A stretch of 64,000 bases of DNA from Carex sylvatica (lineage: Eukaryota > Streptophyta > Magnoliopsida > Poales > Cyperaceae): positions 1 through 64,000 of the forward strand of contig CAXKVR010000423.1 in assembly GCA_964058845.1 (NCBI GenBank). The letters are read 5' to 3'. Numbering within the stretch: position 1 is the first letter of the stretch; each line of letters starts with the position of its first letter. A model generated the notes under the pieces. That model was not told where the DNA came from. It did no database searches and was given only the letters and a program-made list of their open reading frames with translations. Shown in pieces: positions 3,383 to 47,417 of this stretch. The translations under genes and the position numbers were made by a program.

Positions 3383-6300
3383 GAATATATTGTATTGGGG
3401 TTTTAAATGCCCTATTATCTTGCCATCTTGTGACATTACTAGCATGTTTCAAACACCTTCAATTGGAGTGTTTTATTAGGGTTGTCAATGCCATGTTATC
3501 TTGCTATATAGAGTCACTACTCGAGTGCTCCAAATACCTTCAATTGAATTATTGTATTTGGACTGTAAATGTCCTATTATCTTGCCATATAGAGACACTA
3601 CTAAAGTGCTCTAAACACATTTAATGGGAGTGTTGTATTACGGTTGTAAATACCCTATTAACTTGCCATCTAGTGACACTCCTAGATTTCTCCAAAAACC
3701 TTCAATTGGAGTGTTGTATTATGTTTATAGATGCCCTATTATATTGCCATATACACTAGTAGAGTGGTCCAAATACCTTCAATTTGAGTGTTGTATTAGG
3801 ATTGTAAATACCCTATTATCTTCCCATGTAGAGACACTACTAGAGTGCTCCAAACACCTTTAATTGGAGTGTTGTTTTTGGAATGTAAATGCCATATTAT
3901 CTTGTCATCTGGAAACACTACTAGATTTCTCCGGACACCTTCAATTGGAGTTTTGTTTTAGGGTTGTAAATGCCCTATCATCTTGCCATCTTGAGACACT
4001 ACTTGATTTCTTCATACACCTTCAATTTGAATGTTGTATTAGGTTTTTAAATGACCTATTATCTTGCCATATAGAGACATTAAAATAGTGATCCAAACGC
4101 CTTCAATTGGAGTGTTGTATTAGCGTTGTAAATGCCCAATTATCTTGCCATATAGAGGCACTACTAGAGTACTCCAAATACCTTCAAATGAAGTGTTTTA
4201 TTAGGGTTGTAAATGCCCTATTATCTTGCCATCTAGAGACACTACTCGAGTGCTACAAACACCTTCAATTGGAGGGTCGAGTTAGGGTTGTAAATTTCCT
4301 ATTATCTTACCATATAGAGACAGTATTAGAGTGCTCCAAATACCTTCAATTGGAGTATTGTATTAGGGTTGTAAATGCCCAATTATCTTGTCATATATAG
4401 ACATTACAAGAGTGCTCCAAACACTTTCAATTTGAGTATTGTATTATAGTTGTAAATACCCAATTATCTTGTCATATCGAGACACTACTAGAGTGCTCCA
4501 AACGCCTTCAATTGGATTGTTGTATTGGGGTTGTAAATGCCCTATTATCTTGCCATCTGAAGATATTACTCGAGTGCTCCAAACACCTTCAATTGGAGTG
4601 TTGTATTAGGGTAGTAAATACCCTATTATATTGTCATATGGAGACATTATCTCATTGCTCCAAACACATTCGATTGGAGTGTTGTATTAGGGCTGTAAAT
4701 GACCAATTATCTTGTCATATTTAGGCACTACTAGAGTACTCCGAACACCTTCAGTTGGAGTGTTATATTGGGTTTGTAGATGCCCTCTCTTGTCATCTGA
4801 AGATATTACAACAGTACTCCAAACACCTTCAATTGGAGTGTTGTATTCAGGTTGTAAATGCCCTATTATCTTAGTGTATAGAGTCACTACTAGAGTGCTC
4901 CAAACACCATCAATTGGAGTGTTGTTTTAGGGTTGTAAATGCCCAATTATCTTGCCATCTGGAGACGATACTCGAGTGCTCCAAACACTTTCAATTGGAG
5001 TGTTGTTTTAGGGTTGTAAAATCCCTATTATCTTGCCATCTGGAGACAATACTAGAGTTCTTCAAACGCCTTCAATTGGAGTGTTATATTAGGGTTGTAA
5101 ATATCCTATTATCTTGTCATATGAAAACACTACTAGAGTGCTCCAAACGCCTTCAATTGGTGTGTTGTATTTGGGTTGTAAATGTCCTATTATCTTGCCA
5201 TCTGGAGACATTACGAGTGCTCCAAACGCCTTCAATTGGAGTGTTGTATTAGGGTTGTAAATGCCCTATTATCTTGCCATATGGAGACACTACTCGAGTG
5301 CTACAAACACCTTCAATTGAAGTGTTGTATTAGGGTTGTAAATGCCCTATTATCTTATCATATGGAGACACTACTCGAGTACTCCAAACACCTTCAATTT
5401 GAGTATTTTATTCGGGTTGTAAATGCCCTATTATCTTACTATATAGAGTCACTACTAGATTGCTCCAAACATCGTCAATTGGAGTGTTGTTTTAGGATTG
5501 TAAATGCTCAATTATCTTGCCATCTGGAGACTCTACCCGAGTGCTCCAAACACTGTCAATTGGAGTGCTGTTTTAGGGTTGTAAATGCTCTATTATCTGG
5601 TCATCTGAAGACATTACTAGAGCGCTCCAAACGCCTTCAATTAGAGTGTTGTATTAGGGTTGTAAATGTCATATTATCTTATCATATGGAGACACTACTC
5701 GAATGCTCCAAACACTTTCCATTGGAATGTTGTATTAGGGTAGTAAATGCCCTATTATCTTGTCATATGGTAACACTATCCGAGTGCTCCAAACACCTTC
5801 GATTGGAGTGTTGTATTAGGGTTGTAAATGACCAATTCTCTTGTCATATTGAAACACTACTAGAGTACTCCATACACCTTCAATTGGAGTGTTGTATTTG
5901 GGTAGTAAATGCCCTATTATCTTGCTATCTGAAGACATTACTAGAGTGCTCCAAACACCTTCAATTGGAGTGTTGTATTAGGTTTGTAAATGCCCTATTA
6001 TCTTACTATATAGAGTCACTACTAGAGTGCTCCAAACACCATTAATTGGAGTATTGTATTAGTGTTGTAAATGCCCTATTATCGTGCCATATGTAGACAG
6101 TACTAGATTGCTCCAAATATCTTCAATTGGATTGTTGTATTAGGGTTGTAAATGCCCTTTTATCTTGCAATATGGAGACACTACTCAAGAGCTCCAAACA
6201 CCTTCAATTGAAGTGTTGTATTTGAGTTGTAAATGCCCTATTATCTTATTATATAGAGTCATTACTATAGTGCTCCAAAGACCATTAATTGGAGTATTTT

Positions 6301-7293
6301 ATTAGGATATTAAATGCCATATTATATTGCCATCTAGGGACACTCTAGCTCCAGATTCCTTCAATTGGAGTGTTGTATTAGGTTTCTAAATGTCCTATTA
6401 TCTTCCCATCTAGAGACATTACTAGAGTGCTCCAAACATTTTCAATTGGAATATTGTATTATGGTTCCAACTGCCCTCTTCTCTTGCTATATGGATACAT
6501 TACTAGAGTGCTCCAAAAATCTTCATTTGGAGTTTTGTATTAGGGTTGCAAATGCTCTATTATCTTGTCATATAGAGACACTACTAGAGTGATCCAAATA
6601 CCTTCAATGAAAGTGTTGTGTTATGGTTGTAAATGCCATGTTATCTTGTCATATGGAGACACTACTAGAGTGCTCCAAACACCTTCAATTGGAGTGTTGT
6701 TTTATGATTGTAAATGTCCTATTATCTTACTATATAGAGTCACTACTAGAGTGCTCCAAACACCATTAATTAAAGTGTTGTATTAGGATTGTAAATACCC
6801 TATTATCTTGCCATCTGGAGACACTACTAGAGTGCTCCAGACACATTAAATTGGGGTGTTGTATTAGATTTGTAAATGCCCTATTATCTTTTCATCTAGA
6901 GATATTACTAGGGTGCTCGAAACACCATCAATTGGAGTGTTTTATTGGAGTTGCAACTGCCCTCTTTTCTTGCCATATGGAGACATTACTAGAGCACTGC
7001 AAGCACCTTCAATTGGAGTGTTGTATTAGGATTGTAAATGTGCTATTATCTTACCATATAGAGACACTACTAGAGTGCTGCATATACCTTCAATTGGAGT
7101 ATTATGTTAGGATTGTAAATGCCCTATTATCTTGTCATATGGAGACACTACTAGAGTGCTCCAAACACCTTCAATTAGAGTGTTGTATTATGGTTACGAC
7201 TGCCATATTATCTTGTCATATGGAGACACTACTAGAGTACTCCAAACAGCTACGATTGGAGTGTTCTATTGGGGTTGTAAATGCCCTATTATC
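3383..7293 (+). repeat. Tandem satellite, 81-bp unit, about 48 copies
   Basis: A head-to-tail array whose unit reads approximately ctccaaacaccttcaattgg - agtgttgtattagggttgta - aatgccctattatcttgcca - tatggagacactactagagtg. I checked the period at 5231 to 5312, exactly 81 bp. Copies differ by scattered substitutions and a few short indels (for example near 4785). Because 81 is a multiple of three and the unit lacks stops in at least two frames, long open frames run through the array (the longest covers 5182-6045), encoding a repeating 27-residue Cys-rich unit. I regard these as a by-product of the repeat length; no promoter or intron structure is evident. Confidence 0.95.
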
Positions 7294-7837
7294 TCCAGGC
7301 CCCTCCAAGACCACAACCTCAAAATCCCCAAAGGTTTACTACCAGGGAAGAGAAATTACCAGCCGGCAAGGCAAAAGTGTTTGAAGATGCCCGGTAGCAC
7401 GTGGTCCTGCAATTGCCACTGCCATTCCGTAACAACTAATCCTCTTGACTACTCGTGATAGGACACACGTTCACCAGCCTGAATACTGCCTTCTCGTGCA
7501 CGTGTCATAGTTTCTCAATCTAAGAGTCCAAGAGGTTTGTTTTGTCGGCATAAATGAGTTCGAATACGTGTATGGGCAGTTGGAGTTTGACCACATCAAG
7601 TTATGATTTCCCAACTTACTACTCGAGCAAAAGTAAGAAAACCTCTTTGACTCATGGCCTTACACTTTCCTTCTCTCACTCTCCATGCATACAGTGACGC
7701 TTACTGGGCTGGCAGTGTTTATGATAGTAAATCTACATCAAGCTTCTGCATTTTCCTTGGCCCAAATTTGATTTCCTGGCCAGACTCTCGTGTTTGGAAT
7801 AGCTAGACTTTCCTTATTAGGACCAGCGAAAAAAGCA
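7294..7837. other. Non-repeat insert that splits the 81-bp array
   Basis: The repeat stops inside a unit after 'gccctattatct' and resumes at about 7838 with 'gtcatatggaaacact'. The intervening sequence is richer in GC, contains no copy of the unit, and includes the copia remnant at 7650-7779. No clear target duplication was found at the edges. It could be a decayed insertion or the product of recombination within the array. Confidence 0.7.
7650..7779 (+). pseudogene. Ty1/copia RNase H remnant
   Basis: Forward translation beginning at 7650 gives a peptide with HAYSDAYWAGSVYDSKSTS followed by FCIFLGPNLISW. This is the conserved start of the copia RNase H domain (usual form [16 protein letters not shown]...FLG..LISW). 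The second acidic residue of 'DADWAG' is replaced by Tyr and the frame degrades downstream. Only about 43 codons are recognisable; there are no LTRs, so it is a fossil fragment. Confidence 0.8.
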
Positions 7838-8083
7838 GATCTCTGTCATATGGAAACACTACTGGAGTGCTCCAAACACCTTCCATTTGAGTATTGTATT
7901 AGGGTTATAAATACCATATTATCTTGTCATCTGGAGACATTACTAGAGTGTTCCAAACACCATCAATTAGAGTGTTGTATTAGGATTGCAACTGCCCTCT
8001 TCTCTTGCCATATGAAGACATTACTAGAGTGCTACAAACACCTTCCATTGAAATATTGTATTAGGGTTGTAAATGTGTTATTA
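7838..8083 (+). repeat. Resumed 81-bp satellite, three copies
   Basis: Three further units continue the array after the insert, in the same orientation ('ctccaaacaccttccatttg', 'ttccaaacaccatcaattag', 'ctacaaacaccttccattga'). The last unit fades out at about 8083 in AT-rich sequence. Confidence 0.9.
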
Positions 8084-14986: not shown

Positions 14987-15289
14987 TAACAAAAGATGTA
15001 CGCTAAATGGTCAAAATAAGGCAGCTTGATCCCAGAGCTTCTTATGAGAAATGAATATCTTTATCCCGACCTCTTTTGTCTCATCTCTACCTTTTTTCCT
15101 TTCAATTCTTTCAGACCTATACAAATCAACTATTTGCTCACGAATTGTTGTCAAATTACCGTACTTTGCCATTTTCAACTGATTAAGATTTCAAGGAATG
15201 AAATCTGGTGCGATCCAAATTTGATAAATGGTATCTTGAAATCTCTATTTTTTTAAATCTAAGCGTTCAACTTTTTATGTGCACGCATC

Positions 15290-15298
15290 TCCAAATAG
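15290..15298. repeat. Left target-site duplication of the MULE (TCCAAATAG)
   Basis: The nine bases TCCAAATAG immediately precede the left terminal repeat and recur exactly at 24754-24762 after the right one. A 9-bp duplication is the signature of Mutator-type insertion. Confidence 0.97.
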
Positions 15299-15530
15299 CC
15301 GAAATTTTTATAAATGTCCCAAAAAATTAATAAATTACGCAATCTACCCTATTTTTTATAAAAATTCGGAATGTACCCAGTTCGGTTAACGGTCCACCGG
15401 AAAACTGATTTCTTTCGGGTTTCCATTCGCTGGACCCGCACCAAACACACCGGTTAACCGTTTACCGGATCCATACCAAAAAACCGGTTAACCAATAACC
15501 GGATATAAAACCGGTTAACCGTGCCCCGGA
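15299..15530 (+). repeat. Left terminal inverted repeat of the MULE
   Basis: The first ~170 bp match the complement of the right end with only occasional differences (for example 'tgtacccag' against 'tgtatccag'). Beyond that, both ends carry several copies of the palindromic core GGTTAACC in 'ccggttaaccg', continuing on the left to about 15645. Confidence 0.95.
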
Positions 15531-16508
15531 AAGCGGTGAATTTGGTTGATCCGGTTAACGGTGGACCAGAAAAGATGTGAATTTAATTGATCCGGTTAAC
15601 AGTGGACCGGAAATAGAATTAATTATTTTTTTTCCGGTTAACAGAATAGTGGAAATCTCATTTCGATTGGTTATATAATCAGCAGATTTCATACTACTCT
15701 GACGGAGAATCAGAGTTTCAGACTCTACGAAAAAAATGTAAGTTTATTTTTTATTAATAAAATTATATAAGTTATTATTATTTTTAAATATTTCAATAAC
15801 TAGATTTTTAATTAATTTGTATTAATTTTTATAGCTGTATTTTTTATTTGAAAGACATGACTTTTTATTATCGACCAGATTAACTATTAAATTATTATTC
15901 ATCTTAATATGTAAATTTTTTATTTTTCAAAATATTCTTCAAATTATTTGAAGAATAAAACGAGGATCAATGTGTTCAATAATTTCCACTGAATAAATAT
16001 ATTTCTAAAAATGATAAAAAAATTTCAATGACTTATACTTAAATTTGTACTCTTTTAAAGGAATAAATTAGTACTTTTTTTCAATATGTACTTAAATTTG
16101 TACTTTTTTTCAATGACTTGTACCTAAATTTTTTTAAAACATCCTAAAAATTACTCCTTAATACTTAATCATTCATACAAAAATAAATTAGTAAATTATT
16201 AGCTATCTATATTTTTTTCTTTTATCTATATTTTTTAGCTATATAGATTTTTTTGAACTTATGTTAATTTTTTTTTAACACAATCACACTTAGACGGAGA
16301 GAAAAGAAGACACTCGGGCAAAGATAAAGGAAGAGAAAAAAGAAAAAAGAAAAAAGAAAAAGGTAATTTTTTATTAATTTGTAAATTATTTAGTTTTACA
16401 AATTATGTTATTTTATTATTTAATTTGTTATAAAATGTAGTTTATTATTTTTTATCCAGGTGTGGTTTTAAAATTATAGTTTGTTATTCAGACGAATCAA
16501 AACAAAAA

Positions 16509-19108
16509 ATGACCGTCATCTGTGTGAGAATTTTTGTTGGAGGAGAAATCCTGTACAATGATGACGGGGTTTTTTACAGCACCCGACCTAAATACTCATT
16601 ACCTATAACCATGGAGCATAACTTTGATTATCTCCAAAGTGAGATTTATAAACTGATTGGGTATACCGTTAGTGAAGCAAATATGGAAATCCAAGCCAGG
16701 TTTAATATGTCTACCGATGGCCAACGTGACTATCAATTGGTACCAATAACAAACCAGCAATCGTTCGAATTGATTTTAGGAATTTTGGCGTCTTTTTCAC
16801 AAAGGGTCCCGATTCTAGAGTTATTTGTAGAATTGGAACCGAACCATACCGGTTTTAATTCCCAATCAAATATGAACAGTCAGATACCTGAAACTCGATC
16901 TCGACCCAGTACGAGTAGGAACCCTGAACCCATAACTCGATCCCGACCCAGTACCAGTCATAATCCTGAACCCACAACTCGATCTCGACCCAGTACCAGT
17001 CGGGTTCGTAGACCAGTACCGATTCCAGATTTTGTACCACCTGTGGATGCGATTGATGATGACAGTTTGGAGAGCGGGGATGAGATGCTCTCAGATGAGT
17101 CATCAGGTTCCGACAATGACGTTAGAGCAATCAGACGGTCACAATCACGTAACCCGATAACTGGTCAGGACGATATGAGACATCCAGTTGATAGTTTCAA
17201 TGACATATCTGGTTTTCGACCTGCAGATATCAATTTTTTCAGCAGCTCAACCAGAACATTCGACAATCCATTAGCCAAAGGCCAAGTGTTTGAGTCAAAA
17301 GCGGCTTTAAGGGTAGCAATAAATGAGTTTCATATCCGAAATAATTATGAATGTTTGGTTTCTAAAAGCAGAGATAATTTTTGCAAATTCAAGTTATCCG
17401 CGAAGCTTAACGGCCTTTCAGGATCTTGGATTATTACCAAACAAGCAATGCCTCATGTATGCAAAGCACCGGCAACACGTGCTGATCATCGTCAGCTTAC
17501 TGCAGAGATGATTGCCCTATCAATTGATGATGCAATTAGAAAGGATGTGTGCGCGCCTATAAATCATATCCGCGATTTGGTGAAAAAAGAGTACAAAAAT
17601 GTAACACCTAAGTACAACAAATTATGGCGAGGCCGTGAGCTTGCTATTGCAAATTTGTTTGGTAGTTGGGAGAACTCGTACAACTTGCTTATTCCACTTT
17701 TGGAAGCCATACAAAGAAATAATCCAGGAACCAAATATTGTGTGACCTCGACCCCTATTGACGGAGAAACTGACAGGTATTTCAATCAAGCCGCATGGGC
17801 ATATGGGCCTTGTATTGCAGCGCTGCCGTTCCTCAGACCAGTGATTAGCATCGATGCTTGTTTCATGTCGGGACGGTACCAAGGTAGATTGCTAATGGCA
17901 TGTATGTACGATGCGGAGAACCAATTACTTCCATTGGCTTTTGCAATTGTGGAGAAAGAAAGCGCAGAAAACTGAGGGTTTTTTATGAGATGGTTGCGAT
18001 TGGAAGTAATTGGAGATAATCATTTTTTTGTGTCATCTCGGATAGACATTTGGGAATTAAATCCGTGTTCCAGAGTTCACTTCTCGGATGGGATGAGTCT
18101 ACCGACCAATGTGTCCATCGGTATTGTTCTCAACATGTTGCCGAGAACCTCTTCAAGCACGTGGGGCGGAACAGAGATGTCAGTGATAGGTTCAAAATTG
18201 GAGTAAACAAATGCAAACCTAGGAGATTGACAGAGATGTTTGAAGACTTCGAAGTTGGTTGTCCAGAGGCTATCGATTATCTTAACAAGGTGGGTAAGAG
18301 GGATCCTAACGATGAAGACGAGCTACCATGTCCGGATAAACTGTATCAAGCAATGGACGGAGGTCACCGATGGGAAATAATGACAACAAATGGGTCGGAG
18401 TCACTGAATGCCGTTTCCAAAATTAGTCGGCGCTTGCCGGTTGCAGCAATCGTGGAGGACACGTTTTATAAGTTGAATAGATGGTTTTATGAACGGCGGA
18501 ACAAAGCTTTAATGAGACTTCAACGAGGTGAGTTGTGGTCCGAAAGGGTAAGTGAGTTATTGCAAAAGCGTATCAATAAATCTCTGAACATGACTGTGAT
18601 TCCTTACGGTAGATACATTGGAGTTTTTGAGGTCATGGTTAGGGGTGAAAAAATTCCTGCAAGGCGTAATCAGCCAAGACTTGAGTATACCCGTAGAGAT
18701 TTCGGGTATAGAGTTGTTGTCAGGGATAACAATAAGGCTGAGTGTGAATGTCAGAAGCCCCAACTGACCGGTATACCATGTTCTCATTTCATGGCAGTGG
18801 TCCGAGAAATGAAATATGATGAAAATTTATACGTCAGCCCCTTGTACAGTTCGTCAATACTGGAACAAACATGGAGTGCATGTTTTGAACCTAAAGACAA
18901 CCAAAATGAATGGCCTGAATACAACGGCCCCAAAATTAAACCTGAGAGCAGATTGATCAAAAAAGGAAGGAGACGGCACAACCGCATACCGATGGAAATG
19001 GACAGAATGCAGGGTCGAAGACTCGGACATCAGGCTCATCGAGAGACAATTGATCGGAATGCAGCAGGTACAATTGATCAGCTAATTAGAAATATCTATT
19101 CAAGATAA
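16509..19108 (+). pseudogene. MURA-type MULE transposase, disrupted
   Basis: Catalyses cut-and-paste transposition of Mutator-like elements in the nucleus. The N-terminal open frame (16509-17975, 488 codons) holds a linker with repeated RSRPSTSR/H units, a MuDR-type DNA-binding region (from about residue 255, KGQVFESKAALRVAINEFHI) and the start of the MULE catalytic core (VISIDACFMSGRYQG, first catalytic Asp). The C-terminal frame (open 18050-19108) continues with SDRHLGIKS, the TNGSESLN region and a SWIM zinc finger (CECQKP....IPCSHF). Two lesions separate the halves: an in-frame TGA at 17973-17975 where the family has Trp, and a one-base loss in the T run at about 18023-18029. Combined length (~860 codons) is normal for the family. 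Context: within the MULE terminal repeats. Confidence 0.93.
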
Positions 19109-19144
19109 ATTTAGAATTTAATACATGTTGTACTTGTAATGTAG

Positions 19145-19480
19145 AGGAGGCAGCAAGACAGGCAGAGGCCGGACCATCGTCGTCGAGAAGGTCAGGAAAG
19201 GGATCTTACAGCAGATCTCAAACAGGGCCATCTGAAGCACGAAGGATGAGCACATCTGACGCAGGAAGGAGGAGCATATTTGAAACAGGAATGAGCACCA
19301 CATCTGAAGCAGGAAGGAGAAGTACATCTTCAACAAGGCCATCTAGTACAGCTAACCAGTCGCAAATAGGGCCATTTGGTACAGCTAACCAGCAGGAAGG
19401 ATCAGAGCAACCAGCAAGAAGAAGTGCATCTGGTCCGTCCATCTTTGGATTTCGTCTTAATCTGCATCGTAGAGGATAAA
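19145..19480 (+). pseudogene. Ser/Arg-rich downstream frame of the MULE (possible transposase C-terminal exon)
   Basis: After an acceptor-like 'taatgtag', a frame begins EEAARQAEAGPSSSRRSG and runs to a TAA at 19478-19480 with repeated TSEAGRRS-type units and the end GFRLNLHRRG. It starts just 37 bp after the stop of the transposase second half. A spliced junction is plausible, but the expected donor near 19105 reads 'caagat' rather than 'gt', so the link may be lost or may never have existed. Low-complexity and likely disordered; no domain recognised. Confidence 0.45.
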
Positions 19481-19650
19481 CTTGCGAATTATTTTATGTT
19501 TTAACTATTTTGTAACATAAATAGTGTTATGTTGTTTTATTTTATGTACTGTACTGGTTTGTATAATTGTATGTAATTGTAGTATTCATTACCGTACAAT
19601 TATTCTATGTTTACTGTACGATTAGTCTATGTTTGATTTTGTTATTAAAC

Positions 19651-19959
19651 ATGATGAAAAATAGCAAAAGAGGTACTGAAGATGCCAAATGTCACTGTAA
19701 GGAAATACTTCTTTTGAAAAGATTTGGTATCCAATTACCTACTGAAAATCCACCCCTTTCAGACGAGGACTTTCTTGAAAATCCATACCCCAAAAAAAAT
19801 AAAATTGATGAAGAACCTCCAACAACAGACGATGAGTTTGTTCCGTGTACTTATACTGGTAAGGCGAGCACATCATCGGTTGCCACTAATCAGAAGCCGG
19901 ATGCTAAGAAGACTACTGGTAAGAAGTCGATTGGTAAGAAATCGGTTGGTAAGAAATAG
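19651..19959 (+). CDS. Small Lys-rich protein of the MULE, 102 aa, function unknown
   Basis: The start codon chosen is the first of two consecutive ATGs at 19651, after an AT-rich leader; a longer frame from 19567 would add an unconvincing hydrophobic stretch. The product has a polar N-terminus (KCHCKEILLLKRFGIQL), an acidic Pro-rich middle (PPLSDEDFLENPYPKK) and a basic tail of GKKS repeats (GKKSIGKKSVGKK) resembling a nuclear localisation signal. It sits between the transposase and the end of the convergent plant-mobile-domain gene. No family recognised; it might be a further transposase-downstream exon. Confidence 0.4.
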   Translation: MMKNSKRGTEDAKCHCKEILLLKRFGIQLPTENPPLSDEDFLENPYPKKNKIDEEPPTTDDEFVPCTYTGKASTSSVATNQKPDAKKTTGKKSIGKKSVGKK

Positions 19960-20237
19960 CAACCGTATTTTTTTTATTCTTTTATATTATATAAGATGTT
20001 TCTTCTTATTGTGTATGATGAAGGAGGAGCAACTGTATTTTTATTATTTGTAAATCTAGTCGTCACGTTTTTTTTCTACACTATTTTTTTGTTTGTTATG
20101 TAAAACATAAAATATAAAACATAAAACAAAAAAACTAAGACATAATAAAACATGAAATATAATAAAACATAAAACATAATAAAATAAAACATAATAAAAT
20201 AACACAAAATAAAATATGAAATAGATAAAATATAAGA

Positions 20238-23200
20238 TCAACGGTCGGGAATATGACCGGGATAATCGGAATGCGAGAAGCGCTGTCTCCGATGGCGCTG
20301 CATGTGACCCCTGCCTAGCGGTTCTTCTTCTTGGCTACCCTCAGGTGGACGTGGAGTCTCATCAAGTGAATGAGATGTGGATGCCCCTGCATCACCACCA
20401 GGTGGACGAGATGTCGATGCCCCTGCATTTTATGTTGCATTACTTTTTTATTATAACACCCTAAGTTAGAAAAAAAAAGTCAAGCTCACCTGCGTCACCA
20501 GTACCGACAGATGGACCTCCTAGAAGCCAGCTAGTCGTATGAACCTCACGCTCACGCTGCAAAGTATCCATAGATAGTCGTTGGGCATACTCCACATCCT
20601 CTTGAGTCTGCGCATCCAAAAAATCATCAAAGGTGCGTGTGCCAAATCCCTGCGCCTGATATTCTGCCCAAGACGGATCGTGTCCACTTTGATCCTGATT
20701 GACATGGAACCGCATACACATTTTTAATTCCTAAAAAAATACATGTAATTCATTTAATATACTTCTTCTGAACGAAGTATATACCTGTCCGAGATCAATG
20801 CCGTAGCTCGGTCCACGCGGCTGAAAAAGACTTTCCGGATGCCAAGCTTGCGTCCCCTGATCCTGAGGTATCTACAATTGAAGGTTAGTTTCATAAGTTG
20901 TGGTTTATAAACAAATTTGTCTAAGCCATGCTACAAAATTACCTGTCCGGGGTCTGCGGCTGAATACGGAGGATTTACCGGTGCAAATGCTTCCTGGTGG
21001 ATGTATTTTCTCCATTCCGTGCCGTCGTATAACCAATCCTTAAAAGGATCTGGGCCTTCGAATCTAGGTGGATCAGGATATGGGTACACCCCAATAGGAG
21101 TAGGCTCGTCCGATGGAATTGCTTCCCAGTTTTCCGGAACCTCTGCTTCATCCATCAATTGTCGCGCACGTGGACCGTAACCTGTATCACAGCAGAGACG
21201 CCAGCCTGTCCTCATTAATTTTTTTCCAACCTTACGCCACCCCTTGGTGAAGAACATCTTGACACCGTGCGCCAACTCTCCAATCCCAGTCAACGCCTGT
21301 ACATAAACAGTTTCAATTTTAGCAATTATGAGTTACAAATAACTGAACCAATGAGAATAGCAAGTAAAAATATTTACAGTCCGAGTGATAAGTGGTCCGT
21401 GGGGAATGTGTCCAGTCGGCCCATGCTCTACTCTGGGGAGCTGCATCGTACGATCCATTCCTTCCACGTGCTGGTCAAACAGATAAACAGAGGCTATACA
21501 TCTCTTCTGGTACCACTTGCGATAACGTGGAAGGTCATTTTGGTCAAACGAGCGACATTCTCTAATTACTTGCGCCTCATATGCAGTAGCCAACTGAACA
21601 TATGTCACGTGTTTTGTGGCCCAGGACTCGTTCTTCTTTGAGCCCAACATTAACCTGTTCACAATTTTATCACAACTTAATACCAAAATTAACTAACATA
21701 AATAAGAAAAGTAACAATGAGTAAACCTTACTTGTGCAACTCAACGTGCGTGTGCCTATTCAGTGGATCTGGCACCGGAATCTCTTGAAACAATCCGAAT
21801 TGTCGCATGCAGCGATCGGGGTAAGTATGCTCAACGATCCAATAAAATATCAATGGACCACGATACAAGTAGTAGGGCTGATAAATTTAGTAAAAATGTG
21901 AGTTATAAATTATAAGTACAGTGACATCTAAGTAAATTATAACTTGATTGAAACATACCTTTCCCGCCTGAGTCACTGTCGGAAGCTAGTTGTAGACCCT
22001 TCCGTAGGGCTCCCAATTTACACGATCCTCCGTCAAACTCTGAATCTGGCCCCGCGGGATACGTGCACCCTGGGTCTTGAAGTGGGAGGATGCGTTGTAC
22101 TTGTGCGGACCACACCATTTGTACGCAAAAGATGCGCATGTGTCAAGTGTTGGAGCACCCCAGACAGGTTCCCAGTTTTTAGTTTGAGGCTCAGGCCGGT
22201 GAACTGAAAAACGAGTCCACGACCAGTGCTGCAGAAGCATCACCGGACCATGCATAGATCCTCTCCCGGGGTCGGTAGCGACACATAGATGCCGATACAG
22301 ATACACAAGAACTGCTCCACCCCAATTATACTGTACCGGCTGGTCCAAATCCACAATTAGATCGAGATACCACAGCGGTATCCCGTCCCCCCCACTGTCC
22401 ACGAACAAACTTGACGACATCAGGTCCAAGATATATGCACGGACATACCTAGCAAAATTCAATACAATGTGAGTACATTATTGATAGGCTAAAACACAAA
22501 TAAATTGATAGTCGTTGTATATATATATATAATATTTACCACTTCAGTATTTGATCGTCGCGATCTACCGGTAGCGTCTTGAATCGTTCACGAAATTTAG
22601 ATTTCAGAAAAGTCAACTCCATTGTTTTCTCATTTCCCTCATGTCCCCGTTTTTTCATAAGATCACTCTGCTCATGCTCTTTTATCCCTAACAATTCGAA
22701 GAGCCGACCTTTTGCAATCCTCCCGTCTGCACTCCCCGTCACTGGGACCCCCGTAATAGGCAAACCCCACAAACAGCTCACGTCTTCTAACGTAACTGTA
22801 ATTTATCAAATAAACAAATATAAATTTCTTCATTTCAATTGTCACTAAATTATCACAAAGCAGATATGTATTTGAAGTACAAAACTTGTAGTTAATACCT
22901 GTCATCTCTCCAAATGGAAGATGAAAGGTGTGCGTCTCAGGACGCCATCGCTCCACAAGTCCGTGTATTAGCGCCGCATCTATTTTTTTTTGAGGCATTA
23001 CTGCGATCTGGTATAAACCCAATCGAATCAAAAATGGCGCGTATGCAACGTGGTATGCAGTCTGACAACGGTAGTGCTTCACGTTTATAACCTCCATTTT
23101 CTATATTACAAAAAATAAAAATTACAAAAATTCAAACAAGATGATATTTCATAAAAAAATAAAGAGTAAATGCTTACCTCATCAGAAGCGAGACACACCC

Positions 23201-23282
23201 TATGATAGTTGTGCGGTATCCACAACAGATCACTAAAATTATCCCGCGCCATATTTACTTCCTCACTGATTTCGTCTGCCAT
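20238..23282 (-). pseudogene. Plant mobile domain (PMD, MAIN-like) gene, ten exons, one premature stop
   Basis: Exons on the minus strand, all with GT-AG junctions and compatible phases: 23178-23282, 22899-23100, 22540-22795, 21959-22448, 21732-21877, 21378-21654, 20943-21296, 20785-20871, 20490-20730, 20238-20422 (2,343 nt, 780 residues). The PMD (about residues 40-450) shows its hallmarks RWRPETHTFHLPFGEMT, VTLEDVSCLWGLPITG, VLVYLYRHLC, LLQHWSWTRF and PDRCMRQFGLFQEIP. The C-terminal third is polar, Gly/Pro-rich and probably disordered. Host PMD proteins such as MAIN and MAIL1 act in silencing and meristem maintenance; others ride in transposons and are often annotated as phosphatase 7 long-form homologs. 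One defect: an in-frame TAG at 21986-21988 in exon 4, where CAG (Gln) is expected. All other exons are open. The gene converges with the transposase inside the MULE. Confidence 0.93.
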
Positions 23283-23299
23283 GCTACAAAATTAATTCA

Positions 23300-24250
23300 A
23301 AGTTAATTCATTATTTTTAAAAAAATTTAACTAATGTAAACTGTTTTACATTTTTGTAATTATATCTAAATCAATTTAAATTATCTAAATTATTGTAAAC
23401 CTATTCGGAACAAATTTGTAATTTTCTAAACTATTTAATACTATTTTAACATTTTCTAAATTTTTCTATACCGTGTTGGAACTTCACTAAATTATTCTAG
23501 ACTATTTTGAAACTTTTTAAATTATTCGGCAACTATTTTAAAATTTTCTAAAATATTCTACACTGTTTTAGAACTTTCTAAATTATTTTTCACCATTTTA
23601 ATATTATACAAATTACTCTAAATCATTTTAAATTTTTTATAAATTATTGTAAACTAATTTGGAACTTTCTAAATTATTCGGGCACCACTTTACATATTTT
23701 TAAATTATTTTATACCATTTTGGAACTTCCTAAATTATTCTACATTATTTTGAAATTATTTTGAAACTTTTCTAAATTATTCTACATTATTTTGCAACTT
23801 TCTAAATTATTCGGACTACCATTTTAAACTTTTCTAAATATTCTAAATCTTTTTCAATTTTTTTTAACTAATATTCTAAACAAATAATATAAATTATTCT
23901 AAATTGTTGAACAAATAATCTAAACAATACTATAAATTCGAAACAATCTAGACAGTATTTCAAATAATTCTAAATTATCTAAACAATATGCCAAATAATC
24001 CTAAATAATCTAAACAATATTCCAAATAATTCAAAACAATCTAAACAATATTTCAAATAATTCTAAATAATATAAACAATATGCAAAATAATCCTAAACA
24101 ATATTCCAAATAATTCAAAACAATCTAAACAATATTTCAAATAATTAAATACAATCTAAACAATATTTCAAATAATTCTAAACAATCAAAACAATATTTT
24201 AAATAATTCTAAACAATTCTAACCAATATTATAAACTATTTTAATACTCT
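23300..24250. repeat. Degenerate AT-rich tandem repeats in the MULE right arm
   Basis: Two related phrases alternate: 'aactttctaaattattc' (about 23390-23850) and 'aaacaatatttcaaataatt' (about 23880-24240), with spacing of roughly 30-40 bp and much drift. The block separates the 5' end of the PMD gene from the right terminal repeat, where its promoter would lie. No coding potential. Confidence 0.75.
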
Positions 24251-24389
24251 CTAAATAAAAAAATAAAAAAAAACCTGATTTTTTCTTCTTCTTTTCTTCC
24301 CGCAGCACACCTCTCTTCTCTTTTTTTTTTTGTGAGATTTGAGTCCCTCTGCCCTCTAACCCGGCCTCAAATAACCAAAGAATGGCTAA

Positions 24390-24485
24390 CGCGTCCACAG
24401 TAGCCTGCCCACGGGTCATGCCACGCGTCAATGCCCCGCCCCGCGTCGCCCCGGGTCATGCCACGTGTCACGCCCCGCCCCGCCT
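24390..24485. repeat. GC-rich subterminal duplication of the MULE
   Basis: A CG-dense stretch with two copies of 'gggtcatgccacg' (about 24414 and 24453) each followed by 'ccccgccccgc'. It stands out against the AT-rich surroundings and lies just inside the right terminal repeat. Confidence 0.7.
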
Positions 24486-24499
24486 AAAAATAAAAAAAT

Positions 24500-24753
24500 C
24501 TTTCCGGTTATCGGTTAACCGGGTAATTGGTTTGGGTCCGGTAATTGGTCCGGTAAATGGTTAACCGGATAATTGGTTTGAGTCCGGTAAACGGTTAACC
24601 GGTTGTTTGGTTCGGGTCCGGCGAATGGAAACCCGGAAAGAAATGATTTTTCCGGTGCACCGTTAACCGAACTGGATACATTCCGAATTTTTATAAAAAA
24701 TAGGGTAGATTGCGTAATTTATTAATTTTTTGGGACATTTATAAAAATTTCGG
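24500..24753 (-). repeat. Right terminal inverted repeat of the MULE
   Basis: The complement of 24753 downwards matches the left end from 15299. The inner part contains several GGTTAACC cores (24510-24610), mirroring the left side. Confidence 0.95.
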
Positions 24754-24762
24754 TCCAAATAG
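24754..24762. repeat. Right target-site duplication of the MULE (TCCAAATAG)
   Basis: Exact copy of 15290-15298 adjoining the right terminal repeat. Confidence 0.97.
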
Positions 24763-25587
24763 CTAGTTTTTCTATGCAAGCATCTCAAAATAAATCGATA
24801 ATTGAATTTGAAAAAGCAGAAATTTCATAATTATGTTCATCCAATTCGGATCGCAATAGATTTGTTTCCATATTTCAAGAAAACCTATACAAATCAACTA
24901 TTTGCACTTTGTAGTACACCCTGTTACCTCGATTTTAAGCTCAACTCTAGCCTTTTTCGGTTTTCTCATCATAGTTAAATAAAGATTATATAAGAGATTA
25001 TGTCGTATATTATAATTATTTTTTGTTATGTACTGTTACATCTTGATCCCATGTAGGTTAACCTTATTTTGTCATATAAAATATGTATTTTTATCTCAAG
25101 TCTGAATCGGTGTGGAAAGAGCTGTCGTTTGAGGCGGTTGATTTACCTCAGACCAGATGGAGGATTTACATAGGGCAATAATGAAATTATTATTTCCCTG
25201 TACGACCAAATTAAACTTGTTTTATCCCTGAATTACTACTTTTATTTTTCATATCGTTTGTATATACTGTGTGTAATAAGCATAATGAGCTTAAGCTGTA
25301 TAGTAGAGCCAAGAAGTTTTCATATTTATATTGAGCACAATAGATGAAAGATACCTTTTCACTATTTCGAATTGCTTTGTTTAAATATGACACCTCAAAC
25401 AACAAACTGGATTACTCTGCCTCACAAAGCTGGTATATATTCTCTTAGTAAAATGTATTTAGTCACCTTGGCTATATATATTCTTGGAATTTTGTGTATT
25501 CTGAATCAATGTGACTCCTGCTATTGAACAGGGATTTCGAAGGTTTCCACATTTACTTGAGAATTTATTGTCAAATTATATGGTGGC
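24763..25587. other. Intergenic sequence
   Basis: No gene recognised. The first ~35 bp (ttttctatgcaagcatctca) resemble the sequence just left of the MULE (tttttatgtgcacgcatctc), so the pre-insertion site may have been a short degenerate tandem repeat. Confidence 0.5.
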
Positions 25588-32404: not shown

Positions 32405-32850
32405 TGTTGAAATATTAAACTTAATTATGTAATAAAGTAAAGTTAATAGAATAAGTAGTGGAACTCCTTTGTTTCAGCAGTTGCAGAATTATTGGGCTGA
32501 TTGATGAGGGGATATGAAAGATCAAACGATGTTTGTTTTGGCTGTATGACCTATGGATGGAAAGCTCTAGAAGTCTAGTTTCTGATGGTTCAAATTTCAA
32601 AACGTTTGGAGTTCCCTACAGAGAGTTATGGCTGTTTTAGTGGACAGGGGTCAGCTGAAACAGCTGCTGTTTAGTATTCTATTTTTAATACGAATTCTCT
32701 AGATACTTCTGTTGTCTTAGCCTATAAATAGAGTTGTAATCTGTTGTTTGAGATATAAGAAAGATACAAGAGTTTATATAAGAAAGATAGCTTGTTTTAT
32801 CTATCTCTTTCCTGATCTCAAATTGTGATATCCACCATTCTCTTTTATCA
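32405..32850 (+). repeat. 5' LTR of the copia element
   Basis: Begins TGTTGAAATATTAAAC and ends TTTTATCA. A TATA-like 'cctataaatagag' lies about two thirds in (near 32722), so transcription probably starts in the last ~100 bp. Confidence 0.97.
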
Positions 32851-32853
32851 AAG

Positions 32854-32865
32854 TGGTATCAGAGC
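32854..32865 (+). other. Primer-binding site of the copia element
   Basis: TGGTATCAGAGC, three bases after the 5' LTR, complementary to the 3' end of initiator methionine tRNA as in most plant copia elements. Confidence 0.95.
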
Positions 32866-32884
32866 CCACAGGTCCCAGGTTCAA

Positions 32885-35800
32885 ATGGCAACAAAAAATT
32901 CTAATATTTCCTTCCAATATCCAGTTCTAACCAAAACCAATTATGATAAATGGTCGCTGCGAATGAAGGCTATCATTGGTGCTTATGGCTTTTGGGACAT
33001 TGTCGAGAATGGCTATGAAGATCCCGAAGATGAGATGGAGCTTACAGTAGCTCAGTTAGGTGCCTTGCAAAAGAAGAGAAAAGAAGATCAAGCCACTCTA
33101 AGTATTATCCATCAAGGACTGGATGATGATATGTTCGAGAAGGTTGCCAATGAGACGCGAGCAAAGGATGCATGGGAGATTCTTCGCAACTCGGTGGTTG
33201 GAGCTGAAAAAGTGAAGAAGGTGCGGCTACAAACTCTAAGGGCTGAGTTTGAGTCGATTGTGATGAAGGAGAATGAGTCCATAGGTGACTACTTCACTCG
33301 AATATTGGCAGTGGTCAATCAAATGAAGAGGCTTGGTGAAAAGATTGAAGATGTGAGAGTAGTAGAGAAAATTTTGCGATCTCTCAATGCAAAATTCAAT
33401 CATGTGGTGGTGGCAATTGAAGAGTCCAAGGATATCGACTCCATGACGGTTGATGAGTTGAATGGGTCTTTAGTGGCTCATGAGGAGAGAATGAAGAGAC
33501 ACCAACAAGAGCCGGTGGATCAAGCATTGCAAGCAAAGTTTTCCTTAAATCAAAAAGGGAATGACAAAGGAGGCCGAAGTCGAGGACGAGGCCGAAGTCG
33601 AGGTCGAGGCCGAGGGCGTGGCCAAGGTCGAGGAGAAAGTCATAGACAAGCTGAAAATGAAGAAAGAAGTGCCAACAACCCTACACATAGTAGAGGACGC
33701 GGTCGTGGAAGAGGCGGCCGAACGAATCGGTACAATATTGATTGTTACAATTGTGGCAAATATGGTCATTACGCAAGTGAATGCTATTCCGGAAAAAAGG
33801 TGGAGGAGAATGCTAATTTTGTAGCTAAGGAGGAAACCGATAACAATGATGTAGTGTTATTGGCTAACAAGGAGAACGGTCCCGAGAAGGAGAATGTGTG
33901 GTATCTTGATACGGGTGCAAGCAACCACATGTGCGGGTACAAGTATATGTTCACCGAATTGAAGGAGATAGCAGATGGCCATGTTTCTTTTGGTGATGCC
34001 TCCAAAGTGCGTGTAGAAGGTGAAGGTAATATTTTGATAAAGTTGAAAGATGGAACTCAAAAGTTTATTTCAAGTGTTTATTATGTTCCGGAAATGAAGA
34101 GCAATATTTTGAGTTTGGAACAATTGTTGGAACGTGGTTACACGATTTTTATGAAAGACTGATCTCTTTATTTGCGTGAAAAAAATAATCAGTTAATTGC
34201 CCAAGTTGAAATGGCCACTAATAGAATGTTTAAGTTGAATTTGGTGAATATTGAAGCAACATGTTTAAAGACTTGCGTAGCAGAAAAAGATTGGTTATGG
34301 CATTTAAGGTTTGGACACATGAATTTTGGAGGGCTAAAAGAAATGGCTAGTAAGAAAATGGTGTATGGATTGCCATCGATTGATTCTCTCGACAAGTTTT
34401 GTGAAGGGTGTGTGATTGGAAAACACCCAAGGAGTAGCTTTCCAAAAGTAGCAGAATATCGAGCAAAGAAGCCCCTCGAATTGGTGCATACCGATATTTG
34501 TGGTCCAATCAAGCCGAGCTCAATTGGTGAAAACCGGTATTTCATAACTTTTATTGATAATTTTTCTCGCAAAACTTGGGTTTATTTCTTGAAAGAAAAA
34601 TCAGAAGCTTTTGGAATTTTTAAGAAGTTTAAAGTTTTTGTTGAGAAACAAAGTGGCTTTTATATCAAGGTTTTGAGATCGGATCGAGGCGGTGAATTTA
34701 CTTCAACCGCATTTAACTCCTTTTGTGAAGAACATGGTATTCGGCGTCACTTGACAGCACCATACTCACCCCAACAAAATGGAGTCGCCGAGCGTAAGAA
34801 TCGGACTATTCTCGACATGGTTCGAAGTATGCTCAAGAGTAAGAACATGCCAAAGGAGTTTTGGGCGGAAGCGGTGGATTGTGCCGTTTATTTATTAAAT
34901 CGGTGCAAGAAATCTAGCTTAGAGAATGTAACACCGCAAGAGGCTTGGAGTGGTTTGAAACCGACAGTGTCACATTTGAAAGTATTTGGTAGCGTAGCAT
35001 ATGTGCACATACCGGACCAAAGGCGTGTAAAGTTGGATGACAAAAGTTTGAAGTTGATATTTGTTGGGTATGATGAGAGGTCTAAAGCTTACAAATTTTT
35101 TGATCCCACTAACAAAAGGATACATATTAGTCGTGATGTACAGGTGAATGAAGGAGCAATGTGGGACTGGAGTGCAATGAAGGAGACTTTTCATGAGAAG
35201 GCACCCGAGATGCACTCACCGGTGAACATTCCATCCAACAACCATGAGGAGATGCCACCAACTACACATGATGCATCTTCATCGGATGACGAGGCAAGAC
35301 CCCTCAAAACAAGGAGCATTCGTGACTTGTACGAGGAGACAAGCGAGTTGCATTTGGTGTGTCTCTTGGCTCAAGGCGACAACATTCCATTTGAAGAAGC
35401 GGTGGTAGATAACAAGTGGCGAGCCGCTATGGATGATGAGATGCATGCAATTGTGAAAAATGACACATGGGAGCTCACCTCTCTTCCTGAAGGTCACAAG
35501 GCGATTGGTGTTAAGTGGGTTTACAAGAAGAAGGTGAACCCCCAAGGCGAAGTTGTGAAACATAAAGCGAGATTGGTGGCAAAAGGCTACAAGCAACAAG
35601 CCGGTATCGATTATGAGGAGGTATTTGCACCGGTAGCAAGAATGGAGACTATTCGACTTTTGATTTCTCTTGCGGCTCAATCAAAGTGGTGTATCCATCA
35701 AATGGATGTCAAGTCGGCCTTTTTGAATGGTGTTTTAGAGGAAGAAGTATACATTGAGCAACCCCCCGGATATTTGAAAGAAGGCTGTGAAGGTAAAGTT

Positions 35801-36934
35801 TTAAAATTAAAGAAGGCCTTGTATGGCTTGAAGCAAGCTCCTAGAGCTTGGAACACACGGATTGACCAATACTTTAGATCGCACGGTTTCGTGCAATGCC
35901 CCTATGAACATGCGTTGTATGTGAAGATTAAAAATGGTGATAAGTTGATGGTGTCTTTATATGTTGATGACTTAATTTTTCTGGGTAGTAGTGGTGAAAT
36001 GATTGAGGAGTTCAAAATGGCCATGAAGAGTGAGTTTGAAATGACCGATTTAGGACTTATGTCCTATTTTCTTGGTCTTGAAATAAAGCAAGGAGAAGAA
36101 GGCATTTTTGTAACACAAGAGGCCTATGCCAAGGAGATTTTGAAAAGGTTCAAGATGGAGGATTGCAAGCCAGTTAGTACTCCGGTTGATTGTGGCGTGA
36201 AGTTATCTCGACATGACAAAGGAAATGTAGTCGATGTGACATTATACAAGAGTCTAGTTGGAAGCTTGAGGTATTTGACATGCACTAGACCGGATATTTT
36301 ATATGCGGTCGGCTTAGTTAGCCGGTACATGGAGGAGCCGAGCTCAACACATTGGAAGACTATCAAGCGGATTCTTCGTTACATCCGAGGTACTCTAACT
36401 CTTGGTTTGTTTTATAACTCATCCACTAACAACTGTGCAATTTTTGGCTATTCGGATAGCGATTGGGGCGGAAACACAGATGATAGAAAGAGCACCTCGG
36501 GATTTGCATTTTACATGGGAGATACAGCATTCACGTGGCTTTCAAAGAAGCAACCGATCGTCACCCTTTCGACATGTGAAGCGGAATATGTCGCGGCAGC
36601 AGCGTGTGTGTGTCATGCGATTTGGTTGAGAGGGTTACTCAAGGAGATAAACTTTGCTCAAGAAGAGGCTACGCAAATTTATGTGGATAACAAGTCGGCA
36701 ATCGAGTTGGCTAAGAATCCGGTCCATCATGAAAGAAGCAAGCATATTGATGTGAAGTATCATTTTATTCGAGAGCAAGTGACGGAGAAGAAAGTTGAGT
36801 TGATACATGTGGGTAGTGAAGATCAAGTTGCGGATATTTTTACGAAGCCATTACCAACCATGAAGTTTGAGAAGTTTAAAAAACTTCTGGGCATGAAGGA
36901 TGTAAAGGGAATCAAGTTTAAGGGGGTGTGTTGA
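32885..36934 (+). pseudogene. Copia gag-pol polyprotein, single in-frame stop
   Basis: Encodes capsid and replication enzymes of the retrotransposon. Start: first ATG after the primer-binding site (32885). Order: gag (UBN2-type, from residue ~20), an Arg-Gly-rich stretch, zinc knuckle CYNCGKYGHYASEC (33743-33784), protease WYLDTGASNHMCG, integrase ([31 protein letters not shown]), reverse transcriptase ([22 protein letters not shown]), RNase H ([18 protein letters not shown]). The stop TGA at 36932-36934 lies inside the 3' LTR. One TGA at 34160-34162, between protease and integrase, interrupts an otherwise open 1,350-codon frame; the reading frame is unchanged beyond it. The stop may be a disabling mutation or could be read through. 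Confidence 0.96.
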
Positions 36935-45284: not shown

Positions 45285-47417
45285 TGTCTTAGCCATAGTC
45301 ATCCCTATTTTGTAAGACAAAAACAGAATATAAGGCTGACAGCAGGTATCTCCCTCCCTTTTCATTTGGTAAACCTAAACTCTGGTAATATTTCAGAGCA
45401 TACATCCAGAACCACTGGAGTGTAAAATTATTTTAGCAGGCTAGTGTATGTTGTTTACTTCTTGAAGTATCCTGAATTGATTTGAGGTGGTGCATTTCAT
45501 CTTCTAGAGAACTTTGGGTCTCTGCATTCCCTTCATCTAATTTATTTATTTGTTTTTTTTTAATTCTAAAACTCTATATTAGCTATGACAATCTATGAAC
45601 CTTTTTTTGGTACTCTTGTGTATGATTGCATATGTAGTTAAAAACTTGTATACACAATTACCAACCATGGTACTTTTGGTAGCAACACATTATTAACTCT
45701 ACTAATAATTCCTAGTGCTTGCAGCTACAAAGTTAGATGGGGTTCAGAAGTAGAGTGGGTTAACATGCCACAACTGAAAAGTTGAGGGGGTTTACATGCA
45801 ATTAAGTCAAACATGAGGGAGGTAAAGGAACCACACTGAAACTAATAGAATATAATTGTCTGAAATTGTGGGATTTGGAACAGAGCAGAGGTTGTCTAGC
45901 ATGCTGTTCCAAGTCGAGCCCAATAACAGCAGTTGACGAGCCCTCCAAAGGTCTGAGGATACAGGGTCGAAGCGTTACTGGTGTAAAGAGAGGCAAAGGG
46001 AGCCTATCAGAGGATTTGTGGAGTACAAGCACGTATGAGATGGACAATAGCGCTCACCAGTCCCAGAGGAGTATTTCTTCCCTCAGCACTGCCATCGATC
46101 ACACTGCCAGTAGTAGTAATGCAAATTTGACCCCGGGCGAATTTGTAAATCATGGTCTAATCCTTTGGAATCAGACCAGGCAGCAGTGGCTTGCAAACAA
46201 AAAGCCGCAGCCTTCTCATTCCCGCCCACACCATCCTAAAGAACCAAAATTAAGGTACTTACTGTTCTTTCTTTGTAAATTATATTGTAGTGTATGTTTT
46301 GGAAGATAGTTGGGATAACTTAAATTATACTTGTTGGTAGAAATGTCAATAATGAATTTTTTCCTGCAGTTACTTTTCCATAGCTTGGTTAGTTCTAGTT
46401 CAAGTATAATATCCCAGCTGGGGATGTAAACGGATCATTTAATATCCATTGGTATCTGGATTTGTATCCGGATATTGGCAGATACAGATATCGACGGATG
46501 CGGATACAAATTTCAATTTAAAAGTAGATATGGATAATTATCTGGATCCCGATTTTTTGGTATTCTGATATTTGTTCAAGATGCCCATATATCATTGCAA
46601 TTTGAACTTTGGAAGCTAATGTAAAATTTTATACCAACCCAATTGATAATCTTTAGGCCCAACTACTCAATTACATCTACTCACGTTTCGTACTCGGTAG
46701 ATTTATAATTCATTGTAACATTTGACAAATAAAATGATAATAATTACTGATAAATTTTTATTATTTTTTTGCAAGCAAGTTTTAAATATTACGTCGCTGA
46801 TGTTATGAATGCACATATAATATATGTTATTTTTTGTGAAACATTTGATAGTTCCATTCTAATATCTGATTATATCGTATTTTCTTATCTGTTCATTGTT
46901 TACTGTTTCGATCCATGTCCATATGTATATAATATCTTATCCCAATCTGTGTTAAGAGCCTACCCATATGGATATGGGTTGCCTATTGTCTGTCTGAATC
47001 TGATCCTTTTACACCGCTATTCCTGGCTCAATTGTAGGTTTAGTACCAGCCTTCCAATGTTGGTGGTGTGCCAGTTAAGCCTTTTACTGACATATGACAG
47101 ACCAAGCATACTACTAATGGGTGTATAATTATGCTGGCAGTAACAAAAAATTTATGAACAGCATACATATATTTTTTTTCTCATACATTTGGTCCTTTGC
47201 AGTTGGAGTGCGACGTATGAGAGTTTGCTGGGAACCAACAAGCCGTTTCCACAGCCTATTCCTCTCTCTGTAAGAATTCTTATCAGCAGCATTATATTAT
47301 CCCCTCTTATTCCCTTCATTTTACTTGATTTTATCTTCATAATTTGGTTATTTATGAGTGCAGGAAATGGTAGATTTCCTGGTGGACGTGTGGGAGCAAG
47401 AGGGGATGTATAATTAG
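45166..47417 (+). CDS. Gag1-like clamp domain (DUF4050) protein, 166 aa, four coding exons
   Basis: Coding exons: 45166-45174, 45884-46254, 47203-47269, 47364-47417; all junctions are GT-AG and in phase (501 nt with stop TAG). The N-terminus reads MHGSRGCLACCSK, Cys-rich, followed by the family motif AVDEPSKGLRIQGR and a Ser-rich linker (MDNSAHQSQRSISSLSTA). The conserved domain has FVNHGLILWNQTRQQWLA, YESLLGTNKPFPQPIPL and MVDFLVDVWEQEGMY at the C-terminus. Plant members of this family are small proteins of unknown molecular function; the domain name comes from a fungal protein. An alternative ATG at 45119 is out of phase with exon 2, so the short start is preferred. Intron 1 (45175-45883) contains a 37-base poly(C) run, and intron 2 (46255-47202) a hAT-like insertion. 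The frame is intact and this is the one credible resident gene. Confidence 0.92.
45248..45284. repeat. 37-base poly(C) tract in intron 1
   Basis: Uninterrupted run of C after 'tcccctac'. Length may be unreliable, since long C runs are prone to sequencing error. Confidence 0.9.
46417..47022. mobile_element. Degenerate hAT-like element in intron 2 of the DUF4050 gene
   Basis: The left end 'tggggatgtaaacggatc' pairs imperfectly with the complement of the right end 'gatccttttacaccgcta' (13 of 18). The flanks 'tcccagct' and 'tcctggct' agree at 6 of 8. The interior has 'ggatatc/ggatacg' repeats like those at 25861-26221. Same general family, different length. Confidence 0.5.

Follow-up and report, generated by a model that had tools for sequence, protein, structure and literature searches.

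What is a plant mobile domain (PMD) gene doing inside a transposon, and does it serve the element or only ride in it? The question is raised by a Mutator-like element (MULE) of 9,455 bp at positions 15299–24753 of a 64,000-nucleotide stretch of Carex sylvatica DNA (contig CAXKVR010000423.1, assembly GCA_964058845.1; hereafter the window), in which a MURA-type transposase gene on the plus strand and a ten-exon PMD gene on the minus strand are convergent. A first-pass annotation of this DNA had taken the PMD gene for a functional partner of the element and not for recently captured cargo. At the level of the family, sequence comparison supports well that the PMD is a long-kept functional partner of this MULE lineage, because sibling elements carry both genes, the PMD is under purifying selection, the same layout recurs in five MULE families and the PMD is nearest to the PMDs of other elements.

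The window element combines a transposase domain and a SWIM domain with long terminal inverted repeats and a 9-bp target-site duplication, within the 8–11 bp range of MULEs. The outer 124 nt of the ends (15299–15422 versus 24630–24753) are 95% identical, with additional arms further inside, and a BLAST alignment of the two ends spans 205 nt with 92% identity. The inverted ends of about 230 bp announced earlier are thus present, if slightly shorter than stated, and the 9-bp duplication TCCAAATAG was found to be exact on both sides (Table 1). The coding state is another matter. MURA is interrupted by a TGA at 17973–17975 and by a frameshift in the run near 18021–18030, and the PMD by an in-frame TAG in exon 4, so that the description of a complete-looking MULE holds for the anatomy and not for the genes. 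The window copy is dead, and judged by its sequence it is a decayed member of a two-gene autonomous MULE family. A 23-bp exact direct repeat is common to both flanks (15115–15137 and 24883–24905), and the insertion site may itself be repeated DNA.

Gene identities were read from an intact sibling on contig C190 (C-numbers denote contigs of the assembly searched, which comprises 64 Mb in 950 contigs). Its MURA frame matched the Pfam profiles PF10551 (MULE, 44.9 bits), PF03108 (33.8 bits), PF04434 (SWIM, 23.7 bits) and PF00872, each above its cut-off, and the window MURA is 97–98% identical to this frame, confirming a MURA-type transposase on the plus strand. The closest named proteins are from Carex rostrata. 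A putative splice junction would join the main and last MURA exons; among the 15 PMD-richest siblings the last-exon frame is fully open in 13, partly so in C16, and carries two stops in C87. The exon edges of the PMD gene (GT/AG) were taken from C190 and transferred to the window copy. The spliced C190 protein has 780 residues and scores 219.7 bits against the PF10536 profile (cut-off 34.9), in agreement with a ten-exon PMD gene on the minus strand. In a second family, termed B (C332), the MURA frame is intact with 910 residues, and the region corresponding to exons 2–6 of the window element's own family, A, forms a single open frame of 468 codons with a probable separate first exon, judged by eye. 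The arguments first advanced for partnership, namely that the exon structure is kept and that the gene fills a third of the element, carry little weight, because both genes are broken in the window copy and because family B merges the frame of exons 2–6 yet keeps the pairing.

Siblings in the genome carry the case instead. The left end gave at least 43 matches at 71–100% identity on 27 contigs (best 40 of 171 candidates scored), and siblings were fetched from 18 of the 26 other contigs with such a match. PMD sequence was present in 17 of these 18, the remaining one (C417) leaving its contig inside MURA; 15 have MURA together with most or all PMD exons, while C185 retains PMD exons 1–4 and C61 exon 1, both with internal parts missing. 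A consistent lack of the PMD among sibling elements was not seen. Counting the window, 8 of 19 copies (C190, C387, C700, C877, C584, C665, C321 and C35) are free of stops and frameshifts in both genes, and the seven others match C190 with an identity of 99.7% or more across the part that aligns. In C23, MURA is intact and the PMD holds one stop. An exact 9-bp duplication flanks 8 of the 11 copies with both ends located (that of C635 being a run of A), is imperfect in C40 and C87, and is absent in C190; a twelfth end pairing (C321) was out of order and was excluded. Matching the left to the right flanks of C190-like copies through their duplications paired none. Since the left flanks (C700, C665, C321, C35, C190) and the right flanks (C190, C387, C877, C584) all differ, the C190-like copies occupy several insertion sites. 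All eight intact copies sit at contig ends, for which reason their near-identity could be partly an assembly effect, and the assembly breaks at this MULE family, so that the true copy number may differ. By search alone, C843 and C769 are similar to the C190-like intact copies.

DNA searches with each gene addressed how regularly the two travel together. Taking the 40 best-scoring MURA loci (from 125 candidates), a family PMD lies no further than 12 kb away at 29, and at every one of these it is convergent. The other 11 loci comprise C61 with PMD exon 1, C417 leaving its contig, C945 and C96 with a more diverged convergent PMD, and seven at which no PMD was found. The notion that the PMD and the transposase are always together therefore stands as a rule and not without exception; the exceptions look like decay, an explanation that reaches some of them only. 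Among the best 40 of 53 PMD candidates, 10 loci are without a MURA match and one has MURA on the same strand. A wider count pooled several best-match lists, including 52 of the 61 rows of one (short rows omitted) and the 28 listed rows of another with loci already entered removed, and yielded at least 166 PMD and at least 179 MULE transposase loci. Among the loci listed, a MULE transposase lies no more than 8 kb from 93 of 166 PMDs (88 convergent, 3 on the same strand, 2 divergent); 73 PMDs are without a MULE within that distance and 87 MULEs without a PMD, although loci of either kind need not be solitary. MULEs placed evenly at random would predict 7.7 such PMD loci versus the 93 observed, a figure that would be higher if transposons cluster. 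Convergence is a feature of five MULE families, with PMDs 39–53% and MULE domains 55–74% identical. At C48:436101-438518, two diverged PMD pieces face outward in opposite directions, resembling an inverted duplication.

The PMD is under purifying selection much like MURA. Relative to C190, the ratio of nonsynonymous to synonymous substitution rates (dN/dS) of the PMD was 0.15–0.49 across eight diverged copies, with 0.27 for the window, and that of MURA 0.16–0.45 except for C16 (0.92). In a test confined to codons with a single change and assuming a transition bias of 3, silent changes exceeded the neutral expectation (P < 0.05) in seven of nine PMD pairs and seven of nine MURA pairs, compared to 2 of 36 in a wrong-frame control; the pairs share branches and hence are non-independent. 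The two MURA pairs without a silent excess were C190–C16 and C23–C185. The PMD evolves faster than MURA, because its identity between families A and B is lower (43% versus 51%) and its dN relative to C190 within family A is higher, in all nine copies with both values above zero. In VANDAL elements, VANC likewise evolves faster than VANA (PMC5735166).

The PMD tree comprised 29 rows, included no Gypsy PMD and held public rows whose transposon context is unverified. A branch supported at 100/99 separates five element families, together with PMDs from Carex, Rhynchospora, wheat and a metagenome, from twelve MAIL-type rows; the labels MAIL2 and MAIL3 are presumptive and follow the source names. 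A PMD nearer to a resident host gene was not seen, the element PMDs being nearer to one another than to the MAIL-type rows. Along the element side, families branch off as B, next A and finally C78 together with C506 (97/93, 100/96 and 95/78), with C474 outside and poorly placed. In the MURA family tree, C78 and C506 are represented by Carex rostrata proteins, both on long branches; this tree gave the same order for four families (C78 with C506 98/96; A beside them 82/80), the rows standing in for C474 being unstable. Within family A, both gene trees recover a C190–C23–C16–C185 group (MURA 99/99, PMD 96/96) and pair the window with C635 (MURA 53/86, PMD 96/99). With 103 columns, the alignment behind a separate MURA tree did not suffice to settle most nodes, and MULE-domain and PMD identity across ten family pairs correlated at only 0.54. 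In PMC5418596, the MULE PMDs are embedded within the PMD-C clade. We do not claim to overturn that placement, because our rows differ, no Gypsy PMD is among them and two grass PMD-phosphatase proteins fall on the element side. By eye, the N-terminal stretch of the plant PMD proteins P0103, P0080, P0116 and P0025 resembles the start of MURA, and these are perhaps the transposase-PMD fusions described in PMC5418596.

Table 1 Features of the MULE in the window.
Feature	Position	Strand	Remark
Left target-site duplication TCCAAATAG	15290–15298	.	sequence read
Left terminal inverted repeat	15299–15503	+	~205 bp at 92%; outer 124 bp at 95%
MURA-type transposase, main exon	16509–19067	+	domains from intact sibling C190; broken here
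Transposase, last exon (inferred)	19145–19479	+	GT at 19068, AG at 19143–19144, by eye
Small open reading frame, 102 residues	19651–19956	+	open in C44, C40, C3
PMD exon 10	20238–20422	-	with stop
PMD exon 9	20490–20730	-	
PMD exon 8	20785–20871	-	
PMD exon 7	20943–21296	-	
PMD exon 6	21378–21654	-	
PMD exon 5	21732–21877	-	
PMD exon 4	21959–22448	-	TAG at 21986–21988 in window copy
PMD exon 3	22540–22795	-	
PMD exon 2	22899–23100	-	
PMD exon 1	23178–23282	-	with ATG
Degenerate 30–31-bp AT-rich tandem repeats	23420–24279	-	PMD start to right end; candidate protein-binding array
Right terminal inverted repeat	24549–24753	-	pairs with left end
Right target-site duplication TCCAAATAG	24754–24762	.	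sequence read

The small open reading frame between the two genes is shortened or not found in the remaining siblings, intact ones included, and had no match in Pfam. Elsewhere in the window, an 81-bp minisatellite of about 48 copies (3390–7294, and 7839–8074) contains long open frames of 287 and 204 residues encoding a repeating peptide, a Copia-type retrotransposon at 32816–36934 has gag and pol frames with reverse transcriptase and integrase domains, and fragments at 45806–46306 and 52632–53093 show a Gag1-like clamp domain and a sub-threshold Transposase_32 match. An Rfam search of the window returned no matches.

As to what the partner does, we lean slightly towards the PMD acting as a VANC-like anti-silencing protein that binds the repeats upstream of its gene, a reading that draws on structural models. 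Predicted models of related PMDs match VANC21 (PDB 9lnj) in fold at 9% identity, and P0056, a PMD on the MAIL side that is taken as a host gene with its transposon association unverified, has the same predicted fold. The earlier suggestion that the PMD shields the element from silencing thereby becomes more than a guess as far as the predicted fold goes, the activity itself being a prediction. Each of the ten copies scanned has an array with a 30–31-bp period, whose extent differs between copies. The repeat unit AATAATTTAGAAAGTTCCAAAA, allowing up to two mismatches, has 336 occurrences genome-wide (reversed control, 0), and among about 100 places listed many, though not all, adjoin members of the window element's family. 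Furthermore, a sister subfamily (C28, C140), with 84% MURA and 67–70% PMD DNA identity, carries a cleaner array of this unit upstream of the PMD, situated about 3.2 kb away in C28 and about 1.2 kb away in C140, where the MURA match lies 9.4 kb from the PMD. We regard the array as candidate protein-binding sites because of the analogy with the targets of VANC (PMC5735166). The PMD protein would bind these 30-bp repeats and, once bound, would clear family members of silent chromatin with sequence specificity; with silencing removed, PMD and MURA would stay expressed and transposition would follow. More broadly, and with confidence just short of even, PMD and VANC may form one superfamily in which a PMD/VANC-type gene, carried by plant MULEs at large, reads the tandem repeats of its own element and lifts silencing, MAIN and MAIL being relatives that work oppositely. 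If so, the PMD, at present a domain without an assigned function, would serve as a module for sequence-specific DNA binding.

A number of observations weigh against a VANC-like partner. No PMD was found at seven of the 40 best MURA loci (C453, C760, C578, C233, C226, C33, C542), and reading 2 kb at the expected PMD position in C233 and C578 revealed none; the PMD pairs C40–C3 and C44–C3 lacked a silent excess; and two of the proteins grouping with the elements in the tree, PMD-phosphatases from grasses, may be host genes. In family B, the 1 kb of sequence inspected upstream of the main PMD exon lacked an array of this kind. Motifs known for VANC21 and VANC6 did not recur within any of the nine elements examined, YAGTATTAY being absent from each and AGTTGTMC present once. 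Neither PMD model is of the window's own protein, P0004 sharing 42% identity with the sibling PMD across 58% of its length, and a shared fold at 9% identity is no proof of shared function. The PMD profile retrieved no VANC from PDB sequences, the presence of 9lnj among them being unconfirmed, and gave one match, Nop56, at an E-value of 7. Finally, a role in promoting silencing has been reported for the host proteins MAIN and MAIL1. Searches with DUF1985 (PF09331) matched neither the sibling PMD (E up to 1) nor P0001, P0003 or P0004 (E up to 10) and gave three weak matches in the genome, none above the cut-off, and a viral structure library yielded nothing at E up to 0.001. The literature searched, which did not include the primary paper of 9lnj, yielded nothing that connects PMD and VANC by structure; two meeting reports mention VANC structure work as unpublished, and the term PMD is absent from both.

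The same evidence bears on other roles. The PMD could be a transposition helper for integration or excision like maize MURB, which we consider unlikely. As a second convergent gene it holds a mudrB-like position, mudrA and mudrB being convergent in MuDR. MuDR is a two-gene element in which mudrB is apparently needed for integration (PMC6446971), and Mu ends hold promoters able to drive convergent transcription (PMC3276141). Selection and co-travel fit a helper equally, and the seven MURA loci without a PMD do not discriminate; the sole fold match, however, is to an anti-silencing DNA-binding protein. That this match is DNA-bound also speaks against a decoy of MAIN/MAIL, in which the PMD would occupy partners of the MAIL1–MAIN–PP7L silencing complex and not bind element DNA, as does the 100/99 branch that parts element PMDs from MAIL-type rows. 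MAIN and MAIL1 do act together with PP7L (PMC7156037), element and other plant PMDs have a common domain and predicted fold, and some grass PMDs of the element-side clade bear the phosphatase domain PF00149; even so, we deem a decoy quite improbable.

That the gene is captured host cargo in the manner of a Pack-MULE, functionless for the element, appears very improbable. MULEs do capture genes, and PMC5418596 proposes that PMD-C was captured twice by them, but purifying selection, the PMD in 17 of 18 fetched siblings, the convergent layout across five families with such divergent PMDs (39–53% identical) and the position away from MAIL-type rows argue otherwise. Recent capture from a host gene is rejected by the trees, selection and co-travel. 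The window is rich in transposon remains, and two unrelated nested transposons might have placed the PMD beside MURA by chance; yet a single pair of ends and a single duplication enclose both genes in several siblings, and the count of 93 of 166 listed PMD loci versus 7.7 expected contradicts such nesting, leaving it a next to negligible probability.

The pairing of MULE and PMD is known in kind, previously as a table entry whose purpose was open, and we regard the predicted VANC-like fold as the part worth following. Two independent lines agree here: selection keeps the PMD in the element lineage, and related PMDs are predicted to be VANC21-like. The function of the PMD thereby becomes directly testable, in transposons and equally in MAIN and MAIL, the silencing factors of the host, and the intact, near-identical family copies in this genome provide the test material.

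Among known systems, VANDAL21 of Arabidopsis is alike in being a MULE whose additional gene evolves more rapidly than its transposase (PMC5735166, PMC10398659), in having tandem repeats in non-coding DNA (PMC5735166) and in VANC21 having the fold predicted for the PMD. It differs in that no sequence similarity to VANC21 and no DUF1985 were detected in the PMD, the VANC motifs are not repeated in the PMD elements, and VANDAL21 also carries VANB, unlike the window family; VANC-like anti-silencing is known there and predicted for the PMD. Maize MuDR (mudrA/mudrB) is likewise an autonomous MULE with a transposase and a second gene, whereas mudrB is, in the text available, reported only in Zea, with a product of unknown function (PMC3276141). 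The host PMDs MAIN, MAIL1, MAIL2 and MAIL3 have the PF10536 domain, and the 100/99 branch separates the MAIL type from element PMDs; PMC5418596 also describes MULE PMDs and suggests an anti-silencing use. Unlike a Pack-MULE, the window family has a transposase, and its PMD groups with those of other elements. The closest counterparts in layout, not by placement in a tree, are the MULEs with an antisense PMD (MUDR group 50, MULE-Monocots 47, MDR 48 and MUDRAVI2 49; Dupeyron et al. 2019, PMC6446971). That survey lists the PMD in plant MULE groups 42 and 45–50, often antisense, and groups 47–50 have in common with the window family inverted ends, a 9-bp duplication, a SWIM transposase and a PMD antisense to the transposase within one element. 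In the part available its table records presence only, whereas here co-travel, selection and branching order were examined within one genome.

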